Shown here: positions 5,601 through 24,356 of the stretch, piece by piece
Layout of the letters: each line of letters opens with the position of its first letter
How positions within the stretch are numbered: the first letter of the stretch is position 1
NCBI GenBank assembly: GCA_902785325.1
Contig: CACZXZ010000015.1
Span: forward strand, 1-37,895
Direction: 5' to 3'
Length of the DNA stretch: 37,895 nucleotides
From: an uncultured Succinivibrio sp.
GTDB taxonomy: Bacteria; Pseudomonadota; Gammaproteobacteria; Enterobacterales; Succinivibrionaceae
Program-made: the position numbers and the translations under genes
Notes under the pieces: generated by a model
What the model was told of the DNA's origin: nothing
Database searches by the model: none
Seen by the model: the letters and a program-made list of their open reading frames with translations, nothing else

Positions 5601-5676
5601 AGCGTGCCTTTTGTGTGGGTACACAAAGGTGTGAAATCAACTTATTGATTCCACTTAAATTATTGTTGAAAACACA

Positions 5677-5738
5677 CACTGTTTTGACAACGTCCTAACT
5701 TGGGTGCTACTTAAAGTAGTTGGTTAGACGGAACAGTG
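5677..5738 (+). promoter_or_regulatory. Structured rpsB mRNA leader, probable S2 autoregulatory element
   Basis: The leader folds as nested stems: an outer CACTGTT/AACAGTG (5677-5683, 5732-5738), a middle CGTC(C)TAAC/GTTAGACG (5691-5699, 5723-5730) and an inner CTACT/AGTAG (5707-5711, 5715-5719). Leaders of rpsB in gammaproteobacteria are known to carry a conserved structure through which S2 represses rpsB-tsf translation; position and nested architecture fit that. The match to the known element is by recollection of its architecture, not an alignment. Confidence 0.6.
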
Positions 5739-5771
5739 GAGGCATAACCCATTAAATAGAGGATTAAATCT

Positions 5772-20468: not shown

Positions 20469-21425
20469 ATGAACATAAATTATTTAGACTTTGAGCAACC
20501 AATTGCAGATTTACTTGCTCATATTGAAGAGTTAAAGCGTATTAGCCACGATTCTAATTCTAGTGTAGATTTAACTACAGAGCTAAATCAGTTAGAAAAG
20601 AAGAATCTTGAGCTTACTAAGAAGATTTTCTCATCACTAAGTGACTGGCAGATTTCTCAATTGTCACGTCACCCAATGCGTCCATATACCTTAGATTATG
20701 TTGAGCGTATTTTTACAGATTTCCATGAGTTAGCAGGTGATCGTGCCTTTGCTGACGATAAAGCTATTGTAGGTGGTTTAGCCCGTTTAAATGGTCGTCC
20801 TGTAATGATTATTGGTCACCAAAAGGGTAGAGATATTCGTGAGAGAACCTTACGTAATTTCGGTATGCCACGTCCTGAAGGCTATCGTAAAGCTATGCGC
20901 TTAATGAAATTAGCCGAGAGATTTAATATTCCTGTACTAACCTTTATTGATACCCCAGGTGCATACCCAGGTGTTGGTGCTGAGGAGAGATCACAGGCAG
21001 GTGCAATTGCTGAAAGCTTAAAGTTAATGTCTGATTTGAATGTACCTATTATCTGTACTGTAATCGGCGAAGGTGGCTCAGGTGGCGCTTTAGCTATTGG
21101 TGTAGGTGATAGAGTAAACATGTTGCAGTACTCAACCTATTCTGTAATTTCACCAGAAGGTTGTGCTTCTATTCTATGGAAGTCAGCTGAAAAAGCTCCA
21201 CTAGCTGCTGAAGCTATGAATATTACTGCTCACCGTATTAAAGATCTTGGTTTAATTGACAACGTAGTGCAGGAGCCATTAGGTGGTGCACATCGTAATT
21301 ATGATGCTATGGCAGAGAATTTAAAGCAACGTCTAGAGCAAGATCTTGCTGAATTGTCAGACATGCCATCAGATAGGATCATTGAGCAGAGATTCTCTCG
21401 CTTAATGAAGTACGGATATTGTTAA
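20469..21425 (+). CDS. accA: Acetyl-CoA carboxylase carboxyltransferase subunit alpha
   Basis: AccA pairs with AccD to transfer the carboxyl from biotin to acetyl-CoA, giving malonyl-CoA. From the ATG at 20469 it has 318 residues and its N-terminus lines up with E. coli AccA ([10 protein letters not shown] at the same place); a GTG one codon upstream is also possible. The signatures are [33 protein letters not shown], the oxyanion-loop [16 protein letters not shown], and [15 protein letters not shown]. It runs 7 bp into tilS. Confidence 0.97.
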
Positions 21426-22744
21426 AAGAAAAAGCTTTGCAAGTTCTTGATGAACTTGCAAATAAAATCCTTTCTACAATCAGCCCTACCAAACTCGTTG
21501 TGGGTTTATCTGGTGGGGCTGATTCCACTCTAGTGCTCCTTGTAGCTCATCGTATCAGAGAGCTTAACCCAAACTTTGAGGTGCTTGCAGTCCACTGTAT
21601 TCACGGTTTAGATGCAGACGATCCGATTTGGTTTAATCACTGTACTAAGCTTTGTCAAAGACTTGAGATTAAGCTTGTTACCCCAAAATTAAATATTATT
21701 TACGGTAATGGTAAATCCCCAGAGGATGTCTCAAGACAAGAGCGTTACAGAGCTTTACTTAAAAATACTCAAGGTGGAGTGCTAATGCTTGGTCATCAAG
21801 CAGACGATCAAGTTGAGAGTATGTTTTTAGCTCTAAAACGTGGCTCTGGTCCTTATGGCTTATCAGGCATGCGCTTTATGATTAAAGATGAGCGCGGGAC
21901 TATCCTAAGACCGTTATTAGAGCTACATAAAAGAGAGATTATTGAGATTATTGAAGCTTTAGGTTTCAATCATGTTTTTGATATCTCAAATACTTACTTA
22001 AAATTTGAGCGTAATTTTATCCGTCTTAAAGTCTTACCTTTATTAAAAGAAAGATTTGTAGGTATCGAAAAATCAATATTGAGAAGCTCTAAATTGTGCG
22101 CCTATGAGCACGATTTAGCTATGCGCTATGCTAAAGAGCAATTAGACAAAGCTTATATTGAAGATGAGCAAAAGCTAGATATCAATAAACTTGATTTAAC
22201 GGATTTACCACTTATTACCTCAGTGTTACGTCTGTTTGTATTGAAGGTAGCTTCAATGCCTGCAGAGCTTAACACCATAGAGCAAATAATAAACTTAGCT
22301 TCAATCTCTGCTGATCAACACACAGTAATTGCAATTGACGATAACTACTCAGTACGTCGTTTTAAAAACTTTTTATATCTTGTAAGGCAAAGAGAGTTAC
22401 CTCAAAAAGGTAAATATAATCTTGAATATGGACAGACTCTAACCTTAGGCGATTTTACTTATAGCTTAGAGCCTTGCACAGATCCTAAAGAGTCTTTTTC
22501 ATGCAAGAGCGTAGTATTAGATTTCAATTTAGTAGGTAGTACTAAATTTAAGCCTTTAAAGAGATGTCATAGTAGGGAGCTTAAAAAGCTCTTTATGGAA
22601 TTTAATATTCCTGTGTGGCAAAGAGCCTCAAAACCTATCGTTACCGATGCTTCAACTAATCAAGCTATTGCCCTTGCTGATTTGTGTGTCTTTAACTTAA
22701 ATACCCAAGCTAATGGCTATAAGCTAGTAATTAAAGCGCTATAA
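21419..22744 (+). CDS. tilS: tRNA(Ile)-lysidine synthase
   Basis: TilS attaches lysine to C34 of the CAT-anticodon isoleucine tRNA so that it reads AUA. The 441-residue protein has the N-type ATP pyrophosphatase loop LSGGADSTL (about 30-38), [27 protein letters not shown] near 130, the [14 protein letters not shown] linker, and a C-terminal domain. The TTG start at 21419 overlaps accA; a second TTG at 21437 is possible. The stop codon at 22742-22744 lies inside the A-run that is the T-tract of the minus-strand terminator of repeat copy 1, so the transcript of this gene and the small RNA converge with no space between. Confidence 0.93.
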
Positions 22745-22774
22745 AAAAACAAAGCCCGACTCAACTGGCCGGGC
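22743..22774 (-). terminator. Terminator of putative small RNA copy 1
   Basis: A 7-bp stem (22754-22760 with 22768-22774, loop of seven) is followed on the minus strand by TTTGTTTTTTT. On the plus strand there is no T-tract after the stem, so it does not serve tilS well. Confidence 0.8.
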
Positions 22775-22824
22775 ATAGAAATCATTATGAAAAAAGTCAT
22801 CAGTTAGCACTCTCTTAACCGATA
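22744..22824 (-). ncRNA. Putative small RNA, repeat copy 1
   Basis: On the minus strand a promoter-like TTGAAC (22854-22859) and ACTCTAAG (22830-22837) precede a predicted start near 22823. The RNA would contain hairpin 1, CGGTTA/TAACTG (22816-22821 with 22801-22806, one G-U pair). A conserved unpaired stretch follows, GATGACTTTTTTCATAATG. It ends with a terminator hairpin GCCCGGC/GTCGGGC (22768-22774 with 22754-22760, one G-U pair) and a T-tract overlapping the tilS stop. Both G-U pairs would be A-C mismatches if the plus strand were the RNA, which supports the minus orientation. Length about 80 nt; family not recognised; start approximate. Confidence 0.6.
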
Positions 22825-22829
22825 TACTT

Positions 22830-22871
22830 CTTAGAGTCCTTCCTTTTAAAAAAGTTCAAAAAATTTTTAAC
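22830..22871 (-). promoter_or_regulatory. Putative promoter of small RNA copy 1
   Basis: TTGAAC (minus, 22854-22859) and the conserved ACTCTAAG (22830-22837, containing TCTAAG as a 4/6 match to TATAAT at 18 bp spacing) flank a 16-bp spacer. Directly upstream, 22860-22870 matches the UP-element pattern AAAWWTWTTTT. Confidence 0.5.
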
Positions 22872-22879
22872 TTTTTTTC

Positions 22880-22907
22880 AAAAAATAAACCCGACCATGT
22901 GGTCGGG
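22880..22907 (-). terminator. Terminator of putative small RNA copy 2
   Basis: A perfect 7-bp stem (22890-22896 with 22901-22907, 4-nt loop) is followed on the minus strand by TTTATTTTTT. Confidence 0.82.
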
Positions 22908-22963
22908 CAATTTTTGGAAATAATATGAAAAAAGTCATCGATTAGCTACTTAATCTGTGCAAT
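22880..22963 (-). ncRNA. Putative small RNA, repeat copy 2
   Basis: This copy has the same architecture as copy 1, about 84 nt on the minus strand. Hairpin 1 is a perfect GATTA/TAATC (22951-22955 with 22940-22944). Compared with copy 1 the second pair has changed from G-C to A-T and the first from G-U to G-C, so both sides changed together and pairing is kept. The U-rich stretch GATGACTTTTTTCATATT is conserved. The terminator is CCCGACC/GGTCGGG (22890-22896, 22901-22907) with TTTATTTTTT after it on the minus strand. The 5' part (AGTATCAGATTGCACAG) differs from the other copies, so target range may differ. Confidence 0.6.
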
Positions 22964-22969
22964 CTGATA

Positions 22970-23011
22970 CTTAGAGTCTGTAAATTAAAAAAAGTTCAAA
23001 AAAAATTTAAC
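22970..23011 (-). promoter_or_regulatory. Putative promoter of small RNA copy 2
   Basis: Minus-strand TTGAAC (22994-22999), a 16-bp spacer different in sequence from copies 1 and 3, and ACTCTAAG (22970-22977), with an AAATTTTTTTT UP-like element directly upstream. Confidence 0.5.
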
Positions 23012-23018
23012 TTTTTTC

Positions 23019-23050
23019 AAAAAAAACAAAACCCGACTTTTTAGGTCGGG
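23019..23050 (-). terminator. Terminator of putative small RNA copy 3
   Basis: A 6-bp GC-rich stem (23032-23037 with 23045-23050, 7-nt loop) is followed on the minus strand by TTTTGTTTTTTTT. Confidence 0.8.
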
Positions 23051-23103
23051 CCGGAGGAAATCATTATGAAGAAAGTCATCAGTAAGCATCATCTTAACCG
23101 ATA
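23019..23103 (-). ncRNA. Putative small RNA, repeat copy 3
   Basis: On the minus strand this is about 85 nt, with a 5' part almost identical to copy 1 (AAGTATATCGGTTAAG). Hairpin 1 can form as TAAG/CTTA (23093-23096, 23083-23086) inside the longer imperfect CGGTTA/TTACTG. The conserved GATGACTTTCTTCATAATG follows, with one T-to-C change in the U-run. The terminator is CCCGAC/GTCGGG (23032-23037, 23045-23050) with TTTTGTTTTTTTT. The plus strand of this copy also holds a 15-codon reading frame with a Shine-Dalgarno sequence (annotated separately), so a coding role on the other strand is not excluded. Confidence 0.6.
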
Positions 23104-23112
23104 TACTTCTTA
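23065..23112 (+). other. Possible 15-codon peptide ORF in repeat copy 3
   Basis: ATG at 23066 follows GGAGG by eight bases and opens a frame of 15 codons (MKKVISKHHLNRYTS) ending in TAG at 23111-23113. The same frame stops after six codons in copy 1 (MKKVIS) and copy 2 (MKKVID), and neither of those has a GGAGG. The peptide is basic, not hydrophobic, and unlike known type I toxins or attenuator leaders. It is probably incidental to the repeat. Confidence 0.2.
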
Positions 23113-23132
23113 GAGTGGGTTTGTTTAAAAAA

Positions 23133-23150
23133 GTTCAAAATATTTTTAAG
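23133..23150 (-). promoter_or_regulatory. -35 box and UP-like element of small RNA copy 3
   Basis: Minus-strand TTGAAC (23133-23138) is 16 bp from ACTCTAAG (23109-23116) and is directly preceded by AAAAATATTTT (23139-23149), a full match to the UP-element pattern AAAWWTWTTTT. Confidence 0.5.
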
Positions 23151-23241
23151 ATTTTTCAAAAAAATTTTTTTCTATTTTTTTATTTATTTTTGCAATCTCA
23201 AAGCAGATCTAACTTTTAACTAAGATCTTTTAATTATCGTG

Positions 23242-23282: not shown

Positions 23283-24356
23283 ATGCGATTAAAATTACCC
23301 ATTGTAGCTATGCTAACAGGCCTAGCTATGTTTAGCAGCGCTTTTGCTAAAACACAAGTGAGCGCTTATTACTATGACTGCCAAGATCCTTTCATACAGA
23401 TCTTTGATAAAGCATTAAAACTGATTGCTAAAAATTACGATTGTAAGGCTGAGTCTTTTGATGCTAGCAGTAGTGTGCTCTTGCAAAAAGATCAGTTAAA
23501 CAAAGCTTTTGAAAACGAGTCTGCGCTAATAGTTAATCTTATTGATCCAGCCATGGCAGATGAGGTTGTTGCAAACGCGCAAGCTACTAACTCACGTCTT
23601 ATTTTTTTTAATCGTAAGCCTTCAGATTCTGCTTTAGCATCTTATGACAATGCTTGGTATGTGGGTACAAGCTCAACACTTGCTGGAAAGTATCAAGCTC
23701 AAATAGTGTTTGATTTTTTAAGTGAAACTAAGCAGTTTGATAAAAATCAAAACGGCTATTTAGATGTGATCTTTTTAAAAGGCAAAGAATTTGATGAGGA
23801 GTCAGATCAAAGAACTATCTCTTTTGTTGAGGAGTTAGTTAATGACGGTATTCGCATAAATCCTTTATCTTTAATCATTGCAGATTTTAAAACAGAGCCT
23901 GCTTATTTGAAGATGAAGAGTTTACTAGCGCACATAAGCATACACGATATTGAGGTCATTGTAGCTAACAATGATGCTATGGCTTTAGGTGCTTTAAAGG
24001 CATTACAAGAGTGTGGCTATAACCTAAATGGAGATGCTAAAAGCTTTATTCCTATTGTAGGTACTGACGGCATACCTAAAGCTTTTGAAGCCATTGAGAA
24101 AAAACAAATGCTAGGTACTGTATTTACTGATTTTACAGCTTTAGCGTTAGTGTCTTTGAGAATTGCTAAATCTGTAGGCGGTTATTATGACGAGACTTTA
24201 CCAGACAGTATTTGGTTTAGCTATGAAGGTCGTAAGATAATCTTACCTTTTACAAAAGTAGCTTTTTTCAAAAACTACTTTCATACCACCAAGCCTTACG
24301 CCATCAAAAAGTTAGATGACAATATTGATAACGTAAGGCAGTACTACATTCACTAG
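23283..24356 (+). CDS. Periplasmic galactose/glucose-binding-protein-like sugar receptor
   Basis: A periplasmic binding protein of the MglB (galactose/glucose) type, 357 residues with a signal peptide ending at about AFA (22). E. coli MglB features that can be placed are ligand residues D35 and F37 (DPF), N110 (FFN), R177, N230 (ANND) and D262 (GTD), and the calcium loop DKNQNGYLD (153-161) with E224. Three pocket positions differ: H152 to D171, W183 to F202 and N256 to T282, with D154 becoming E173. The sugar may therefore not be glucose or galactose. No permease or ATPase gene is nearby; it may serve a distant transporter or a chemoreceptor. There is no clear ribosome site. A weak hairpin (24358-24374) lies between it and rsmC. 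Confidence 0.8.
   Translation: MRLKLPIVAMLTGLAMFSSAFAKTQVSAYYYDCQDPFIQIFDKALKLIAKNYDCKAESFDASSSVLLQKDQLNKAFENESALIVNLIDPAMADEVVANAQATNSRLIFFNRKPSDSALASYDNAWYVGTSSTLAGKYQAQIVFDFLSETKQFDKNQNGYLDVIFLKGKEFDEESDQRTISFVEELVNDGIRINPLSLIIADFKTEPAYLKMKSLLAHISIHDIEVIVANNDAMALGALKALQECGYNLNGDAKSFIPIVGTDGIPKAFEAIEKKQMLGTVFTDFTALALVSLRIAKSVGGYYDETLPDSIWFSYEGRKIILPFTKVAFFKNYFHTTKPYAIKKLDDNIDNVRQYYIH

Follow-up and report, generated by a model that had tools for sequence, protein, structure and literature searches.

What does a three-fold repeat encode that lies downstream of tilS and is read on the opposite strand? The locus is part of a 37,895-nt stretch of DNA from an uncultured Succinivibrio sp. (GenBank assembly GCA_902785325.1, contig CACZXZ010000015.1, positions 1 to 37,895; hereafter the window), which belongs to a genome of 2.28 Mb. 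Among the relatives of this genome within the genus are Succinivibrio dextrinosolvens DSM 3072, S. faecicola, RUG190 (G044), and RUG260. The original prediction took the repeats for a family of tandem minus-strand regulatory RNAs and named no promoter class, target, or family. That reading is supported, for RNAs of ~80–90 nt, by conserved units carrying promoter and terminator, by the lack of conserved plus-strand coding, and by complementarity to a candidate target; we propose to extend it to transcription by sigma-E, to a porin start region as the target, and to a place outside the known Rfam families. The array very probably comprises three genes in tandem that each have a promoter and a terminator of their own and encode ~80–90 nt trans-acting small RNAs (sRNAs), which would be driven by sigma-E and repress porins.

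Unit layout and promoter class

The three units occupy minus-strand positions 23160–22743 at a pitch of 139 and 140 bp, as first described, and their exact promoter copies stand at the same distances. Read along the minus strand, every unit presents TTGAACTT, the elements GAACTT and TCTAAG sixteen bases apart, a 5′ hairpin, a U-/A-rich open stretch (hereafter the linker), a GC-rich hairpin, and a T-tract. Further details of the first description hold as well: TTGAAC lies 16 bp from ACTCTAAG in all three units although the spacer sequences differ, AT-rich blocks answering to the UP-like elements stand ahead of each −35 element, and every unit closes with the GC hairpin and the T-tract. The sigma-E type motif GAACTT-N16-TCTAAG occurs in three exact copies, all on the minus strand (unit 1, 23136–23109; unit 2, 22997–22970; unit 3, 22857–22830), and nowhere else in the window; 100 dinucleotide shuffles of the window yielded a mean of 0.04 matches, a maximum of 1, and no shuffle with three. 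Once two mismatches are allowed, seven matches face 6.65 expected ones, so that the signal is confined to the exact copies. If taken to run from the final base of TCTAAG through the T-tract, the predicted sRNAs would span positions 23021–23109, 22880–22970, and 22743–22830 (minus strand), the start of the first being expected a few nucleotides inside this interval.

Which sigma factor would read these promoters? In the window's own genome (G000), GAACTT-N16-TCTAA, the motif of the units, ends 23 nt ahead of the ATG of an open reading frame with sigma-70 region 2 and 4 domains (L027/L081); because of these domains and of the gene for an RseA_N protein after it, this frame is identified as the rpoE of an rpoE–rseA pair. 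RpoE matches are present in 53 of 56 family genomes, and among the 30 loci for which DNA was obtained, 20 carry GAACTT-N15-17-TC[TA]AA within 420 nt upstream of rpoE (19 with N16 and one with N17; 14 of 16 loci in the genus and 6 of 14 outside it), against none on the opposite strand, none with the reversed motif, and a shuffle mean of 0.06 (maximum 1 of 30). GAACTT-N16-TCTAA is also the invariant core of all 14 conserved unit sites in the family. Published work lists GGAACTTTT and GTCAAA as sigma-E boxes of Salmonella (PMC1804206) and GAACTT...GTCTAC as the rpoE promoter of S. oneidensis (PMC4336711). Since the matching motif precedes both the genome's own rpoE and 20 of the 30 rpoE loci, the unit promoters are best read as RpoE (sigma-E) rather than sigma-70 promoters, which gives the array, at the sequence level, the promoter type of the sigma-E-dependent sRNAs that repress outer-membrane proteins.

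Tandem sRNAs transcribed from ordinary sigma-70 promoters and aimed at some other target would account for TTGAAC as a −35 element, which shares four of six bases with TTGACA, and for the AT-rich upstream blocks, which fit UP elements. This explanation is nevertheless improbable, given TCTAAG on the −10 side at 18 bp from TTGAAC, an invariant core in all 14 sites that matches the rpoE promoter of the same genome, and a porin, the class expected under sigma-E, as the top pairing partner (see below). On the debit side of the sigma-E reading stand the ten rpoE loci without the motif, one of which offered only 59 nt of upstream DNA, and a loose promoter pattern (N14-18) that is not enriched genome-wide (27 matches vs. 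24 for the reversed control), one match of which (C35:188, L030) sits, by eye, in apparent ribosomal-protein genes. The loose pattern served only to locate the copy at rpoE. Because this looser pattern is unenriched, the sigma-E claim draws on the exact spacing, the copy at rpoE, and conservation. A further GAACTT-N16-TCTAA site (G000:C16:16589-16615, plus strand; L023) was seen shortly upstream of the ATG of a seemingly membrane-like protein (by eye), whose gene is possibly a member of the sigma-E regulon.

Conservation and structure of the units

Is the array peculiar to this genome? The pattern TTTTGAACTTTTN{9,15}CTCTAAG finds 14 sites in 10 of the 56 family genomes, three of them the window's and all spaced N16, and its reversed control finds none in the same genomes. 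A covariance model of the RNA part alone (R1), built from six units with the promoter excluded and searched at E 0.001 with stricter filters, gave 14 matches in 10 of the 56 genomes, all within the genus: six are training sequences, including the three units of the window (23022–23103, 22880–22969, and 22745–22824, minus strand), and eight are new, each with the promoter motif ahead of it. With tilS as the anchor gene for locating orthologous loci, units were found to adjoin it in 10 of 18 genus loci, three in the window's genome, five in RUG190, three in G042, two in G043, and one each in six others; genus relatives thus hold one to five units, mostly beside tilS. Two of the five RUG190 units carry TCAAA in place of TCTAA, as do several relatives' rpoE loci. 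At 8 of the 18 tilS loci the exact motif is absent (up to 1.5 kb examined; one locus ends at a contig edge), a point to be set against the proposed function. Two genomes without a unit at tilS have units elsewhere (two in G036 and one in G033), those of G036 adjoining a gene that shares 45% identity with the divergent neighbour in the window. Unit copy number bears no visible relation to the number of porin matches (G030, one unit at tilS and five matches; G044, five and six). In all, 24 units were read, 22 of which entered the linker listing (the tilS units of G032 and G045, near-copies of that of G030, were omitted); an automatic terminator finder reported 10 units, and the remaining terminators were read by hand. 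Tandem copies in variable number would also be expected of a non-functional repeat or of mobile-element debris; promoter, hairpin, linker, and terminator are conserved, however, while spacers and loops vary, and a search with the whole array returns a single place in the genome, which makes such an origin highly improbable.

Compared with 200 dinucleotide shuffles, units 1, 2, and 3 fold with z values of −2.38, −3.18, and −2.55 (4, 0, and 1 shuffles as good). Their terminator hairpins lie on the minus strand at 23030–23052, with a T-tract that runs on to 23021, at 22889–22908, and at 22754–22774, the T-tract of unit 3 overlapping the final two bases of the convergent tilS. The strand argument of the original prediction stands, with G-U pairs present on the minus strand both in hairpin 1 and in the terminator of copy 3; the compensatory G-C to A-T change that it described for hairpin 1 of copies 1 and 2 hinges on the choice of register and is not confirmed. 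Further covariation in the two hairpins was sought in an alignment of 14 sequences, which was model-fitted to the structure and from which relatedness was not removed. It appears in the terminator stem, where four of six pairs change on both sides, and is missing from hairpin 1, which is paired in 98% of cells and has four pairs with one-sided changes and three invariant ones. Hairpin 1 is conserved, and covariation lends it no support because none of its seven pairs changes on both sides. For the structure as a whole, the cells paired, the cells with two-sided change, and the covariation score all exceed 500 of 500 shuffles, and the pair types are matched by 4 of 500; the count of pairs with two-sided change is matched by 67 of 500 shuffles and by the structure slid by +1. 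Early alignments (A2–A4) shift the stems by a base or two, and since R1 came from one of these (A3), five of the six terminator pairs have 3–6 of their 14 cells unpaired.

The linker and its putative porin target

To what would the open stretch pair? The linkers (minus strand; unit 1, 23053–23080; unit 2, 22909–22939; unit 3, 22775–22801) resemble the reverse complement of a ribosome-binding site together with a start codon: that of unit 1 reads, in reverse complement, GGAGGAAATCATT-ATG-AAG-AAA-GTC, and similar strings occur in the other units. Counted on 19 of the 24 units (G031, G045x, and G042b were further dropped as near-duplicates), ATGARR is found in the reverse complement of 16 linkers (shuffle mean 3.0, maximum 8) and is preceded at 3–9 nt by a word like the Shine–Dalgarno sequence (SD) in 12 (shuffle mean 0.28, maximum 3 in 1000; same-strand control 1 of 19). 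Since the units are related, the counts of 12 and 16 are not independent; independence is greatest for the RUG190 units and for those of a second type (see below). Within the window, units 1 and 2 pass the combined test, unit 1 being anti-SD as well as anti-AUG.

The same strings might be the starts of short plus-strand coding genes, or belong to a repeat with a function in cis, and all three window units do offer ATG-AAR-AAA-GTC on the plus strand, two of them with SD-like words. In ten units, however, the frames that begin at the reverse-complement ATG share only their first three or four codons (MKKV or MKKS) and then diverge or shift frame among relatives; eight of the ten end after 6–16 codons and two leave the unit still open. 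With promoter motifs and T-tracts on the minus strand in addition, plus-strand coding or a cis-acting repeat has very little probability, and the strand of the original prediction is retained.

A protein search returned five porin matches in the window's own genome. The best-fitting of these, chosen as such, is C8:26556-27671 (Porin_1, 7e-13; PDB relatives Porin 1, phosphoporin, and OmpK36), whose start reads AAAGGAAATTATT-ATG-AAA-AAG-TCA-TTA. Computed pairing with this start reaches −29.2 kcal/mol for unit 1 (25 pairs, one bulge), −20.7 kcal/mol for unit 2 (21 pairs, internal loop), and −26.2 kcal/mol for unit 3 (24 pairs, one bulge). For each of the three RNAs, none of 413 sampled genes, a background drawn by crude gene calling from 400 kb of the 2.28 Mb plus the window, pairs as well, and none of 1000 shuffled linkers attains the value of the corresponding unit. 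Set against the second porin match (C1:39070), 1, 9, and 0 of the 413 genes pair at least as well with units 1, 2, and 3; for the other three matches the corresponding counts are 66, 89, and 97; 70, 9, and 10; and 241, 227, and 104. Pairing with the mRNA of an outer-membrane protein near its start is thus found by computation.

Relatives offer comparable cases. A linker-like start pattern gave 38 sites in ten genomes against 11 for reversed controls, among which seven are units and seven are porin starts (all seven translated); 21 of the 38 were translated in the general survey, and by eye the others that recur resemble queC, fabD, and a membrane protein with a GTG start. In S. dextrinosolvens, TATATTATGAAAAAGTCAT within the porin is perfectly complementary over 19 nt to the sRNA of that species, and in RUG190 the corresponding end reads GTCAC in porin L204 as well as in unit e. 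When ten linkers of relatives were each set against an own-genome porin picked post hoc, 0–5 of 1000 shuffles were as good; the shuffle test covered 13 linkers, G040 being omitted, and porin starts were taken for 60 of 80 porin matches, with start codons picked by script and some of them doubtful.

Could the RNAs instead be generic anti-start-codon RNAs that repress many mRNAs beginning AUG-AAA-AAA? This alternative overlaps with porin repression, sharing its promoter and its pairing mode, and the likelihoods given to the two do not exclude each other. Across the 413 genes the linkers do pair better at start regions (−9.83, −8.86, and −8.60) than at upstream or coding stretches (−6.37 to −7.07). 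Shuffled linkers, however, are nearly as good at start regions (means −8.87, −7.87, and −8.16), unit 3 being beaten by at least 1 of 12, and for this reason the start-region preference is mostly one of composition; moreover, all three RNAs have the same porin as their best partner, and signal-peptide genes are not preferred as a group. Repression of this general kind is therefore rather unlikely.

Several observations weigh against porin repression itself. The first ~9 nt of the pairing stretch of unit 1 form the 3′ arm of hairpin 1, and the linker of unit 3 is anti-AUG and lacks an SD-like word by the test applied to the others. The start pattern found no porin among its three matches in the window's own genome, and 11 control sites stand against its 38 matches. 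Two own-genome 20-mer target searches (up to three mismatches) also missed the porin, giving five matches (three of them units; reversed control nine) and four matches (one a unit; control none), because bulges and spacer length break the pattern. The narrow background sample and the selection of the best of five porins also count here. Unit 1 pairs at −27.7 with a 244-aa gene lacking a predicted signal peptide (L128), close to the −29.2 of the porin, and among the 413 genes without porins those with signal peptides are no better paired as a class (p 0.55, 0.09, and 0.17). For G040, pairing of the linker with its single porin is poor (−11.7; the start is uncertain), the pairing test comprised 14 linkers, with G044a, G044b, G043a, G036a, and the second-type units outside it, and the shuffle statistics ignore common descent. 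As a separate observation, a 271-aa protein of the same genome (G000:C16, L116 547-1362, minus strand) with a signal-peptide-like start, outer-membrane-like by eye and without a Pfam match, has a start region, GGAAATAAAATGAAAAAATTAG, that pairs with unit 2 at −16.7 kcal/mol.

A second type of sigma-E-like sRNA unit was noticed in S. dextrinosolvens and RUG260 (L003 10246 and L004 10246, minus strand) at ~3.8 kb beyond tilS, with a different body and an anti-start linker of its own, the 22-mer of which is present also in G031 and G032; a target search with up to three mismatches in these four genomes returned only the units themselves and one 10-codon frame. One tentative view, which we hold to be possible but less likely than not, is that the units duplicate as a set of sigma-E anti-start RNAs and that their linkers, by drift, come to match different porin paralogues or mRNAs of other envelope proteins. 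RUG190 has five tandem units with clearly different linkers, four of which show, in reverse complement, an SD-like word before ATG and two of which pass the stricter SD and ATGARR test; the only moderate fit of its tested linkers to their best porins (c, −18.9; d, −19.2; e, −25.6) and the lack of a second-type target in the four genomes weigh against such drift.

From the sequence we infer transcription, sigma-E dependence, Hfq use, and porin repression, in a mechanism of the following kind. Misfolded porins or envelope stress would free sigma-E (RpoE) from RseA, and sigma-E would transcribe the three RNAs from their GAACTT-N16-TCTAAG promoters. The linker, which connects the 5′ hairpin to the terminator and is antisense to the SD and AUG region of a trimeric-porin mRNA up to codon 4–5, would occupy both elements, stop ribosome binding, and halt translation; Hfq would probably be involved and the porin mRNA would probably decay, so that porin synthesis would drop during envelope repair. 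Experiments have established the same kind of circuit for RybB and MicA (PMC1804206), for VrrA at the start of ompA (PMC2628432), and for FoxI/FoxJ at fomA (PMC11005410). A U-rich linker and tail would suit Hfq, and hfq is present in 19 of 19 genus genomes. The window's own genome has two Hfq-family matches, both outside the window (G000:C13:2953-3138 and G000:C1:76995-77180), one typical (103 bits) and one divergent (67 bits, in an open frame of 185 aa), and at least two occur in 17 of the 19 genus genomes.

Relation to known small RNAs

Do the RNAs belong to a known family? The original prediction could not match them to any known sRNA, and Rfam bears this out: both at the gathering score and with E allowed up to 10, no family rises above its cut-off in the region, which has 33 weak matches on both strands. 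The VrrA model scores 19.2 bits against a cut-off of 50, MicA and RybB are absent among the 33 matches up to E 10, and the OmrA-B model gives no match in the region at the gathering score or at E up to 10. Titles and abstract openings of the literature on small RNAs of Succinivibrio and Succinivibrionaceae mention no such sRNA or envelope-stress circuit. The RNAs are accordingly best read as a putative new family of sigma-E-dependent, porin-repressing sRNAs in a tandem array, without detected kinship to RybB, MicA, or VrrA; because their predicted mode is like that of these three and of FoxI and no Rfam family matches, they are placed within a known functional kind and outside the known RNA families. 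Elsewhere in the window, at 5655–5748 (plus strand), Rfam identifies a t44 RNA (52.7 bits).

RybB and MicA have sigma-E promoters, measure ~80 and ~70 nt, and reduce omp mRNAs (PMC1804206); the window RNAs share the sigma-E promoter and omp repression as predictions from their sequence, and differ in having no Rfam match, another genomic place, tandem copies, and pairing through an internal linker across both SD and AUG. In contrast to MicA, whose conserved place is given there as between luxS and gshA (PMC1804206), the units lie between the convergent tilS (21419–22744, plus strand; Pfam ATP_bind_3 and TilS_C) and a divergent periplasmic-binding-protein gene (23283–24356, plus strand; Pfam Peripla_BP_4, 7e-30). 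VrrA of Vibrio cholerae depends on sigma-E, base-pairs with the start region of ompA, and prevents 30S binding (PMC2628432); start-region pairing under sigma-E would be common to the window RNAs, whereas VrrA has 140 nt and OmpA as its target. FoxI and FoxJ of Fusobacterium nucleatum, sigma-E-dependent sRNAs that repress the abundant porin FomA (PMC11005410), are alike by description only and differ by their C-rich seeds and their phylum. A tandem arrangement of paralogous sRNAs like that of the units is documented for OmrA/OmrB and PrrF1/F2, whose regulated processes differ, namely iron acquisition, curli, and motility for OmrA/B and iron homeostasis for PrrF (PMC4211561).

If the proposed function is correct, the array would add a further case of the path from sigma-E through an sRNA to a porin, by an RNA for which no kinship to the Rfam families of this class was detected. 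Arrays of one to five copies would constitute a natural series in which sRNA duplication and retargeting can be followed, and should the linkers indeed drift with their targets, each linker would record its target and targets would be readable from sequence. For the genus, which includes rumen bacteria, rpoE, the sRNA array, and the porins would together make up a complete envelope-stress circuit.

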